Shown piece after piece: positions 25,744-28,222 of a stretch of 28,672 bases of DNA. This DNA comes from a virus. The stretch's first letter is position 1. Every line of letters starts with the position of its first letter. The notes under the pieces were generated by a model. It was not told the origin of the DNA and ran no database searches. It saw only the letters and a program-made list of their open reading frames with translations. The DNA lies in the IMG/VR virus record IMGVR_UViG_3300042879_001629, positions 1-28,672 of that record; one strand, given 5' to 3'. The translations under genes and the position numbers were made by a program.

Positions 25744-25901
25744 TTGTAGTCCTTTAGTTGTGGGTGTTTCTCAAAGATATAATCTTCTTCGTTATATATC
25801 TTTAAACACCTTTTATAATCTTCATCAACTATTAGGTTGGCTCTAAACAAAGCCTTTTTCCCCTCGTAATTTGACTTTAAATAAATACTGAAATATTTCA
25901 T
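25731..25901 (-). CDS. Small protein, 56 residues
   Basis: Starts MKYFSIYLKSNYEGKKALFR and ends QLKDYNWIA. It is charged, soluble and rich in Tyr, Lys and Glu. Its ATG overlaps the stop of the membrane-protein gene upstream by an ATGA junction, and its end overlaps the resolvase start by 13 bases. This tight packing, together with protein-like composition, argues that it is a real gene. The function is unknown. Confidence 0.6.
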   Translation of the reverse strand: MKYFSIYLKSNYEGKKALFRANLIVDEDYKRCLKIYNEEDYIFEKHPQLKDYNWIA

Positions 25902-26437
25902 AGTGTTATCGTTTTGAATGATGAAACAAATGGTTTAAACGTTGTATTTTCTTTTGTTACTGGTTCAGTTTTTACCTTTACCGTTCTTCTTCTGTGTTTG
26001 ATAATCTTTTTTTCATTGATACCGTAAGCCTCAACCCCTTTGTCAACAAAGTTTATTTCCAAAAGGTAACCAAAAACTACAATTGTGCCAACAAAAAAGA
26101 ACATAGTTATAAATTCTGCTCCAGAATACTTTTCAGATAAGCCAAAGAAAACTTCGATTAAGGCTATTAGCGTTGCTCCTAATGCTATTTTAGGTGGATA
26201 AGGACTTCTACCCTTAGTTGGGTTGAGAAAGTCCATAAAAACGACTGCAAATCGTCCGAGTTGTAAAATGGTTGATGCTATGATAGCAATCCAAAAGTCA
26301 ATCGGTAAAAAGATAGCGGTAAGGTAGGCATTAATGCCATAAGTAAGGACAATTGTAGTAAGCATGATTGTAGGAATGTTGTCGCTAATGCTTTCAAATG
26401 TCCATTTAAATTGTGTGTTTGTGAAATTCTTTTCCAT
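25898..26437 (-). CDS. Four-helix membrane protein
   Basis: A 179-residue inner-membrane protein with hydrophobic segments PTIMLTTIVLTYGINAYLTA, FWIAIIASTILQLGRFAVVF, KIALGATLIALIEVFFGL and FITMFFFVGTIVVFGYLLEI, and a basic cytoplasmic tail (IKHRRRTVKVK). I chose the ATG at 26437 rather than one 54 bases upstream because it follows the AAAACAACC leader shared by neighbouring genes and avoids overlap with the 45-residue gene. No family recognised. A role in host takeover or superinfection exclusion is possible but only a guess. Confidence 0.65.
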   Translation of the reverse strand: MEKNFTNTQFKWTFESISDNIPTIMLTTIVLTYGINAYLTAIFLPIDFWIAIIASTILQLGRFAVVFMDFLNPTKGRSPYPPKIALGATLIALIEVFFGLSEKYSGAEFITMFFFVGTIVVFGYLLEINFVDKGVEAYGINEKKIIKHRRRTVKVKTEPVTKENTTFKPFVSSFKTITL

Positions 26438-26441
26438 TGTA

Positions 26442-26450
26442 GGTTGTTTT
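26442..26450 (-). promoter_or_regulatory. Shared leader motif AAAACAACC, copy 1
   Basis: AAAACAACC on the minus strand, exactly 4 bases before the ATG of the membrane-protein gene, and overlapping the stop codon of the gene before it. The same motif at the same spacing precedes two other genes here. It contains no Shine-Dalgarno sequence. Confidence 0.5.
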
Positions 26451-26586
26451 AAAAAATGTTTAATACTTTGAATGAGTAACTCGTGTACCAATTATTCATA
26501 AATTGGCTGCATGATTTTTTGCTTCTAAAAACTCGTACGGATACTTTGCCAGTTTTCTTGTCGGTTAATTCTACTTTCTGTTTCAT
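26449..26586 (-). CDS. Small basic protein, 45 residues
   Basis: Starts MKQKVELTDKKTGKVSVRVF and ends YTSYSFKVLNIF. It is basic, with one cysteine and a beta-like first half. The ATG is preceded by the AAAACAACC leader at 4 bases, as for its neighbours, which supports it as a translated gene. Its stop lies 11 bases before the next start. The function is unknown; its small basic character would suit nucleic acid binding, but nothing specific shows this. Confidence 0.55.
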   Translation of the reverse strand: MKQKVELTDKKTGKVSVRVFRSKKSCSQFMNNWYTSYSFKVLNIF

Positions 26587-26590
26587 GATT

Positions 26591-26599
26591 GGTTGTTTT
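26591..26599 (-). promoter_or_regulatory. Shared leader motif AAAACAACC, copy 2
   Basis: AAAACAACC on the minus strand with 4 bases (AATC) before the ATG of the 45-residue gene. Identical in sequence and spacing to copies 1 and 3. Confidence 0.5.
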
Positions 26600-26606
26600 A
26601 AAGGTT

Positions 26607-26634
26607 AAAAATTTGCAGTTGTTCGGATGCTGCA
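26607..26634 (-). terminator. Weak possible terminator
   Basis: On the minus strand a 5-bp stem, TGCAG with CTGCA (26614-26618 and 26630-26634), is followed by AATTTTTAA. It lies after the 125-residue gene's stop. The stem is short, so this is a tentative call. The rest of the 70-base gap shows nothing else. Confidence 0.3.
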
Positions 26635-26656
26635 CCCCCGTTTTAGTTAATTATTA

Positions 26657-27034
26657 TTAATAATCTATTCCTTTTACTCCCATTATATTATGGTCTGATT
26701 GTCTTTCCTCAAGTTCATTTTTAACATCTACTCTAATCATAGAACCGTTATCTTTTGTAAAATATGAACTAATAAAATATTGAATTCTATTTTTACCATA
26801 ATTCGTATTTTTAACATAGTCTTTTCCATTGTCAATTAAATCTCTATTATCAATGTGTTTGTAAGCCATCATTTTAGATTTAGGCAACCATCTGTTAGCC
26901 TTATTGCCAATGCTTTCAAAGTATAAAGAAACTAATAAAGCTTTTTCAGTTTCCATTACAACATCTTCACTGTAAAAACTGGCATAATTTGAATTTTTGC
27001 CAATTGGTCTTTCGCTTTGTGTTATCTCTTTCAT
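26657..27034 (-). CDS. Hypothetical protein, 125 residues
   Basis: A soluble, charged protein with alpha/beta character (for example KALLVSLYFESIGNKANRW and NRIQYFISSYFTKDNGSMIR). The ATG at 27034 is chosen over one 24 bases upstream because it follows the AAAACAACC leader at exactly 4 bases, as in the two genes downstream. It is preceded by an A/T-rich gap likely to hold its promoter, though no perfect TAnnTTTG box was found there. No family recognised. Confidence 0.6.
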   Translation of the reverse strand: MKEITQSERPIGKNSNYASFYSEDVVMETEKALLVSLYFESIGNKANRWLPKSKMMAYKHIDNRDLIDNGKDYVKNTNYGKNRIQYFISSYFTKDNGSMIRVDVKNELEERQSDHNIMGVKGIDY

Positions 27035-27038
27035 AATA

Positions 27039-27047
27039 GGTTGTTTT
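27039..27047 (-). promoter_or_regulatory. Shared leader motif AAAACAACC, copy 3
   Basis: AAAACAACC on the minus strand with 4 bases (TATT) before the ATG of the 125-residue gene. The enzyme gene further upstream has a looser version, AAAACATAACC, 2 bases before its ATG. Confidence 0.5.
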
Positions 27048-27084
27048 GTTATTTTCAATACGTAAATTTAAAAACAAATTTTGA

Positions 27085-27121: not shown

Positions 27122-27958
27122 TCAAAATTCTTCCTTTTGCCCATCTTTTGGAAAGTTATCCCGTTTTATTTCCCAGTATTCAGCCATCAAGGAAGCACGG
27201 AATTTGTAATCACGGTCGGTGTGATACCCATTTTCATAGATACATTTGCAGATAGATTCATATAAACGTTTGCCTTTTAACTTGTAGTTGGCTTTTTTGC
27301 ATTCGTAGTACCTTCCAGAGTTAAGGATTTGAGCCCAAAGTTTTAAGCCTTCTTCGGTATTATCAGCAGAAAAAAACTTGGCTTTTATATAGCGGTTCTT
27401 TCCCCTTATAACTTCCCTTGTTTTATAGGTTACATGGTCATAACCTTTTAATGCTTTGCCTCCTCCAGCGTTTGCATGAATGCGCCAAAGGTCGGTTTCA
27501 ATGCCGTTGTTTGTTGCCTCAATGATGAAGAATGAATAAATCATTGATACTGGAAAATCGGTCATGTAGTGAACGTTCATAAGCATATCATTGTATTTGT
27601 ATGCTAACCAAATACGTCTTAATCTGGAATGGTTTTCTCCTTGCAAATTACGAAAGCCAATACCCGTTAAATAATCCCTGAGTTGATTCTCTGACATTTT
27701 ACGCAACTGCCAACCGTACTGCCTTGACCCAAAAGCCGATGCCTTGATATTATCAGCCTTGACTTCCAAAGGTTCAATTGTTTTTTTTACAAAGACCGTT
27801 TCGACCTTGATAATCGGTGCAACTGACTGGGTGACGTATTCTGTTTTAACAGGTGAATACTGTAAGCCTAAAATAAAGGCAATGGTTAATCCGCTACCTA
27901 CCAAATAAGGAAGGCTTTTGTTTTGCGGAACATAGATAATTTCTTCTTTCTTTTTCAT
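27122..27958 (-). CDS. Membrane-anchored glucosaminidase-like wall enzyme
   Basis: A 278-residue protein. Residues 16-37 form one N-terminal membrane helix with a basic start (MKKKEEIIYV), so the rest should face the periplasm. Residues 125-222 resemble the glucosaminidase/lysozyme-like fold: FPVSMIYSFFIIEATNNG with candidate catalytic Glu147, then IHANAGGGKALKG in place of the usual NNxFGIK, and FFSADNTEEGLKLWAQILNS before GRYYECKK, matching the family's closing pattern. It would cleave peptidoglycan sugar chains. It is on the opposite strand from holin and amidase, so it may act at another time. The call is by pattern and not certain. Confidence 0.6.
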   Translation of the reverse strand: MKKKEEIIYVPQNKSLPYLVGSGLTIAFILGLQYSPVKTEYVTQSVAPIIKVETVFVKKTIEPLEVKADNIKASAFGSRQYGWQLRKMSENQLRDYLTGIGFRNLQGENHSRLRRIWLAYKYNDMLMNVHYMTDFPVSMIYSFFIIEATNNGIETDLWRIHANAGGGKALKGYDHVTYKTREVIRGKNRYIKAKFFSADNTEEGLKLWAQILNSGRYYECKKANYKLKGKRLYESICKCIYENGYHTDRDYKFRASLMAEYWEIKRDNFPKDGQKEEF

Positions 27959-27978
27959 CTGGTTATGTTTTAATATTA

Positions 27979-27986
27979 CAAATATA
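27979..27986 (-). promoter_or_regulatory. Bacteroidota-type -7 promoter box
   Basis: On the minus strand TATATTTG matches TAnnTTTG and lies 20 bases before the ATG of the glucosaminidase-like gene. It sits in a very A/T-rich gap behind a strong terminator, which is where a promoter is needed. No clear -33 TTTG was found. Confidence 0.45.
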
Positions 27987-28030
27987 TAAATATTTTAAAT
28001 ATAAAAATATATTTGTTAAAAAAAATGTAA

Positions 28031-28059
28031 AAAAAACCCCGTACCAGAGAGATACGGGG
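28031..28059 (-). terminator. Rho-independent terminator after the dcd gene group
   Basis: On the minus strand a 7-bp stem CCCCGTA with TACGGGG (28037-28043 and 28053-28059, 9-base loop) is followed by a run of T (complement of the A run at 28031-28036). It lies 10 bases after the stop of the 50-residue gene and separates this group from the enzyme gene downstream. Confidence 0.85.
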
Positions 28060-28069
28060 CAAAAACAAC

Positions 28070-28222
28070 CTAAATACAATTATGCAACATTCCAAAAGTA
28101 GATATCTTTATTTCTTTATTCTCAACGTGTATTCCAAGTCTTTTAAACTCTTCAATCGCTTCTTCAACCGTGTCACCGTGAACAATTATTCTCTCATTAT
28201 TATATTTTATCTCCCATCTCAT
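28070..28222 (-). CDS. Small protein, 50 residues
   Basis: Starts MRWEIKYNNERIIVHGDTVE and continues EAIEEFKRLGIHVENKEIKI. The pattern beta-beta-helix with a VEEAIEEFKRLG helix looks like a compact folded domain. Its ATG overlaps the stop of the upstream 43-residue gene by an ATGA junction, and a strong terminator follows, so the gene is well supported. The function is unknown. Confidence 0.65.
   Translation of the reverse strand: MRWEIKYNNERIIVHGDTVEEAIEEFKRLGIHVENKEIKISTFGMLHNCI

Follow-up and report, generated by a model that had tools for sequence, protein, structure and literature searches.

A recurrent A-rich leader before the start codons of unrelated genes in a phage clade that appears to infect Bacteroidota

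In the phage clade described here, which appears to infect Bacteroidota, unrelated genes are preceded by one and the same A-rich string at a nearly constant position relative to the start codon. We believe, with a probability of roughly 0.75, that this arrangement, AAAACAACC-N(2-4)-ATG, is the clade's standard 13-nt translation leader, a strong A-rich initiation region that doubles as a recombination seam. Bacteroidota ribosomes use an A-rich region in place of Shine-Dalgarno pairing, and the leader would be a strong version of that region, with an adenine run set around -13 to -10, in most cases an A at -3, little structure and almost no G. Selection for the fixed position of the A-run would keep the leader in place, its reuse would make it a convenient joint, and small genes and upstream elements (promoters, hairpins) would be recombined there; as it reaches up to the start codon and is shared by many genes, the leader could serve as both signal and seam. 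Stronger translation, early expression and recombination at the seam are what we infer from these patterns, and the description of the leader genes as early derives from their position.

The window, the whole stretch of 28,672 bases that was analysed, is a complete IMG/VR record, although a virus record may itself be a fragment. Its plus strand carries packaging, structural and lysis genes (terminase large subunit, head maturation protease, portal, endolysin), and on its minus strand the stretch from 24,978 onwards is occupied by small genes without assigned function, along with part of a dCTP deaminase gene. Of the best 15 matches to the terminase, 14 come from Riemerella phages and one from a record labelled Shigella phage, each with about 46% identity; gene A has no match in other viral contigs, and genes C and D have none among sequenced phages. 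A longer, TTG-start alternative frame for gene A, from 27058, would include leader A.

The first-pass annotation had reported AAAACAACC exactly four bases before the ATGs of three unrelated minus-strand genes, with a looser form before a fourth. These observations are borne out (Table 1): each of the three genes belongs to a protein cluster of its own, and the looser form precedes gene D, though at a spacing of 2 from its ATG; in its full string, AAAACATAACCAG, the run begins at -13, as in the other leaders. The overlapping downstream starts (25901, 25743 and 25265), said to lack the leader, indeed lack the exact 9-mer, but the first of them does have an A-run close by, in AAAACGATAACACT-ATG. 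The leader observation in the window is genuine: three copies of AAAACAACC-N4-ATG lie on the minus strand and none on the plus, the control pattern (the motif reversed) is absent altogether, and first-order Markov simulation of the window (400 runs) averaged 0.0175 copies, with no run exceeding 1. In total the 9-mer is present five times, two copies (20492, minus; 28062, plus) having no nearby start downstream. With one mismatch allowed it occurs 28 times against 20.0 expected, and since this enrichment of the loose form is mild, it is the exact motif positioned before starts that carries the signal. As a separate observation, UAGGUUGUUUUUG, which lies just before the minus-strand terminator, is complementary over 11 nt to leaders A and C, and the terminator's stems are changed but still paired in relatives.

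Table 1. Positions of leaders, genes and upstream elements in the window
Feature	Position	Strand	9-mer or looser form	ATG	Remarks
Leader A	27035..27047	minus	27039-27047	27032-27034	AAAACAACC-TATT; A-run -13 to -10, A at -3
Leader B	26587..26599	minus	26591-26599	26584-26586	AAAACAACC-AATC
Leader C	26438..26450	minus	26442-26450	26435-26437	AAAACAACC-TACA; first bases overlap gene B stop codon
Leader D	27959..27971	minus	27961-27971		looser form, AAAACATAACC-AG; A-run also -13 to -10
Gene A	26657..27034	minus			125 aa, ATG at 27034; weak PHROG match only (phrog_28803, E 0.0085)
Gene B	26449..26586	minus			45 aa, unknown function
Gene C	25898..26437	minus			179 aa, unknown function; 180 relatives in IMG/VR
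Gene D	27122..27958	minus			278 aa, unknown function; 206 relatives in IMG/VR
Promoter-like stretch TTTTTAAATTTACGTATTGAAAATAAC	27048..27075	minus			upstream of leader A; resembles that of 8 other unrelated clusters in relatives
TATATTTG	27979..27986	minus			fits Bacteroidota -7 element TAnnTTTG
Short inverted repeat TGCAG...CTGCA	26614..26634	minus			before leader B
Terminator region	about 28020-28070	minus			

Relatives of the window were sampled through genes C (80 of 180) and D (80 of 206), and the loci of both, together with the window, made up 154 sequences with some overlap between records. Frames were non-overlapping, at least 40 aa long and read from the first ATG, and so are not curated genes; one was kept per identical 120-base start region, and starts less than 60 bases from a sequence end were dropped, leaving 1,805 distinct starts in 163 protein clusters. 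The motif lies at spacing 2-4 before 93 of the 1,805 starts and in 23 of the 163 clusters, which are unrelated to one another; because the sequences are related and their starts not independent, the cluster count is the safer figure. No start has the motif at spacing 0 or 1, 7 have it at 2, 37 at 3 and 49 at 4, and spacings 5-44 together account for 3. The exact spacing claimed earlier therefore does not hold, and a fixed spacing of 4 is rejected in favour of 2-4. What is held is the start of the A-run near -13: it begins at -13 or -14 in 80 of 96 motif starts, and its length and the spacing compensate for one another (for example, A4 at spacing 4 in 28 starts, A5 at 3 in 25, A5 at 4 in 18, A6 at 3 in 7). 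Absence of the motif from the rest of the genome and from relatives had been named as grounds for refuting the original observation, and here the outcome is mixed, as the motif is absent from the window's plus-strand, partly structural genes but in relatives stands before the 23 unrelated clusters.

Among the 84 arrangements of six A and three C at spacing 2-4, the leader string is the commonest (the same 23 clusters and 93 starts), and the next two are the leader string shifted by one and two bases. Other A/C-rich strings are also common, AAAAACAAA preceding 27 clusters and AAAACAAAC preceding 23. Within families, five of the six members of the gene B cluster carry the motif; it is rare in the clusters of gene C (3/90) and gene D (3/79), whose members use other A-rich leaders, A/C-rich ones in the case of gene C in most of its 80 sampled relatives. 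The same genes also occur with alternative leaders in which an A-run lies at a similar position in a different sequence, and so many members of this kind indicate that the exact string is dispensable. In most relatives (L004-L080) gene C is preceded by a GGGCAG...CTGCCC hairpin and a T-run, followed by CACCACTTAAAAAACAAAACAA or ACACACAACAAAAACAAA.

The leader agrees with the A positions published for a host of this phylum. In Flavobacterium johnsoniae, whose phylum is naturally without Shine-Dalgarno sequences, A-3, A-6, A-12 and A-13 stimulate translation, with loss of reporter expression when they are changed, and the same positions mark well-translated genes (PMC6847099). A-6 is described there as a quantitative enhancer, whose change to C or U costs about 15% in F. 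johnsoniae, and not as a strict requirement (PMC6847099). Leaders A to D all have AAAA at -13 to -10. At -3, A is present in all three exact leaders of the window and, family-weighted, in 90% of the clade's motif starts, leader D having C; at -6, the three exact leaders have C, and A reaches 42%, family-weighted, in the clade set. The leader thus departs from the ideal published sequence, with C at -6 in the spacing-4 form and C at -3 in leader D. The predicted unpaired probability over -15 to +6 is 0.715 for motif starts (60 of the 93 sampled) versus 0.628 for other starts (150 of 1712 sampled; p = 0.0003). The earlier idea of a translation signal standing in for Shine-Dalgarno agrees well with this placement, with the A content and near-lack of G, and with the lower predicted structure.

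The position rule is wide in the phylum, and the exact string belongs to this phage clade. In 34 other families of the relatives, each with at least five members and without the motif, A still makes up 57-72% at -13 to -10; in 332 frames of at least 100 aa from 400 kb of a Salegentibacter genome, it makes up 54-60% at these positions, and the exact motif precedes a single frame, at spacing 2. Four cultured Bacteroidota phages all have an A peak at -13 to -11, and in none of the four does the motif stand 2-4 bases before an ATG. In 25 long clade records, picked by length from the sampled loci, the motif at spacing 2-4 occurs 34 times versus 2 for the control; these copies sit in 13 of the records, up to six in one, and 12 records have none. 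A scan of viral contigs with AAAACAACCAATYATG returned at least 119 stretches, treated as 118 loci and all examined. In the 38 loci with at least two clade gene families, all 63 extended-motif matches listed precede a frame of at least 40 aa, as do 39 of the 81 listed in the other 80 loci; the remaining 42 of these 81 precede shorter frames, and among the matches listed outside the clade some turn up repeatedly within conserved genes. Chance accounts for part of the extended-pattern matches in viral contigs that lie beyond the clade.

A general host signal was also considered and is rejected: in 148 Bacteroidota genomes the pattern AAAACAACCNNNYATG has 64 matches against 50 for its reversed control, both summed by eye. 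A scan of a genome collection with TTTAAAACAACCAATYATG gave 11 matches, five of which, all in Bacteroidota, precede frames of 57-465 aa; these five frames start in the manner of genuine proteins, which means that single copies do exist in hosts. In the open-licence literature, judged by titles and the beginnings of abstracts, we found no described leader of this kind, nor the string itself.

The leader also coincides with sharp boundaries of sequence identity. For 269 pairs of related genes with unlike upstream sequence (11 clusters), identity is about 20-60% up to -14, rises from 48% at -14 to 94% at -13, stays at 94-100% from -13 to -3, and is 84% at -2 and 71% at -1, these values being fixed by the selection of the set at the 9-mer positions themselves, and free of it at -13 (spacing-3 form) and at -4 to -1 (spacing-4 form). 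Nineteen pairs of unrelated genes that share similar upstream sequence (11 clusters) show mostly high identity as far as the ATG and a drop within the first few bases beyond it. Identity therefore breaks in both directions at a shared sequence, as a boundary sequence should have it.

What lies upstream of this boundary varies: of the 93 clade leaders, 29 follow a promoter-like element, 11 a hairpin of one of two listed kinds, and 53 neither. The recurrent promoter-like element AATTTACRTATTGAAAATAACA, found before leaders of nine unrelated clusters, reads TACRTATTG rather than exactly TAnnTTTG and is possibly a clade-specific promoter. Elements of the kind of the inverted repeat before leader B (GCAGCATCC) precede nine of the 93 leaders; an inverted repeat GGGGTGCAGCATCC...ACTGCA stands before leaders of several unrelated genes, its stem being weak for a terminator. 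If TATATTTG is a -7 element, gene D would have a 5' UTR of about 16 nt. More generally, with a promoter directly upstream, transcripts would start about 14-17 bases before the ATG and the leader would be approximately the whole 5' UTR, an estimate that follows from the -7 box placement of -12 to -5 given for F. psychrophilum (PMC9723704).

These boundaries could also suggest that the leader is mainly a recombination joint, a short homology for cassette exchange in which translation is secondary, and we regard this as possible, if doubtful. The same gene is found behind different upstream elements (mean identity over -40 to -15 of 0.31-0.57 in 9 of 12 families tabulated), one promoter-like element is common to nine unrelated clusters, identity has sharp edges at -13 and at the ATG, and a published, disputed model of phage mosaicism has short conserved boundary sequences as targets of recombination (PMC3233612). 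At the same time, the alternative leaders that keep an A-run at a similar position before the same genes point to translational constraint, and random joining followed by selection for function would leave the same picture. A stretch of 13-16 bases is, moreover, short for homologous recombination. The favoured reading has its own difficulty in CAACC, whose constancy is outside what the published A rule explains. If the leader were a site recognised by sequence, bound by an RNA-binding protein of phage or host origin or by bS1 and coordinating early genes, this would accommodate a CAACC more fixed than the A rule needs, the first rank of the string among the 84 arrangements, and the confinement of matches to one strand in each of the 13 motif-bearing long records. 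Nonetheless, A-run length and ATG spacing vary together, which suits ribosome geometry, the motif is missing from many orthologues, and no candidate binding protein came to light, so that we consider such a site quite improbable. A gene for a phage-encoded bS21, as a candidate partner of the leader, was found in none of the 25 long clade records. Both properties might also be combined in a standardised, interchangeable 13-nt 'plug', a landing site read by sequence (CAACC and A-run, perhaps recognised by bS1 or a phage factor) that provides docking homology at once; this we think unlikely. If it were true, any small gene could be joined to any upstream promoter or hairpin, and, once acquired, be expressed immediately at a preset level.

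Two further explanations carry far less weight. An antisense RNA from the terminator region (minus strand) could pair in trans with the leaders through UAGGUUGUUUU, which in the window complements leaders A and C perfectly over 11 nt; the near relatives L003, L039 and L210 have 11-nt complements as well, but in relatives intact leaders also stand next to mismatched versions such as GGTTGATTTTG. Across 125 loci, the mean length of the longest complement was 8.72, compared with 8.40 for shuffled segments, with 5 of the 125 loci exceeding all 20 of their shuffles, and an antisense RNA, very improbable on these figures, is rejected. Chance, or the plain A-rich composition of a low-GC genome, might draw on the mild enrichment of the one-mismatch form, but it is refuted by the simulations, the spacing scan, the contrast between the clade and other loci, and the permuted 9-mers, and its probability is negligible.

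Regardless of how the two roles are divided, a probable translation leader that may also be a seam bears on the question of how Bacteroidota ribosomes locate starts without Shine-Dalgarno pairing. Its reuse before 23 unrelated clusters provides a natural set of matched constructs for testing which bases matter. It offers a simple marker of true start codons in small phage genes, and could serve as a compact expression leader for Bacteroidota. In this context, the phage clade would present a case in which translation signal and gene-exchange seam coincide.

The leader has counterparts in several known systems. Like the boundary sequences of the mosaicism model, it is a short shared sequence that edges single-gene modules; unlike them, as that model is outlined in PMC3233612, it doubles as a start signal and occurs behind upstream elements of several kinds. 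With the Bacteroidota A-rich (Kozak-like) region it shares A at -12/-13 and -3, low structure and the lack of a Shine-Dalgarno sequence, but whereas that region is a loose statistical preference, the phage leader is a nearly fixed 13-nt string before unrelated genes, and its CAACC part is not called for by the A rule. The PeSLs of T4-like phages, in turn, are cassettes of an early promoter and a stem-loop that lie between swapped small early genes. The phage leaders resemble them as repeated units of a hairpin or promoter and a start signal, and differ from them in belonging to other phages and hosts and in comprising a leader without Shine-Dalgarno sequence that comes with or without a hairpin.
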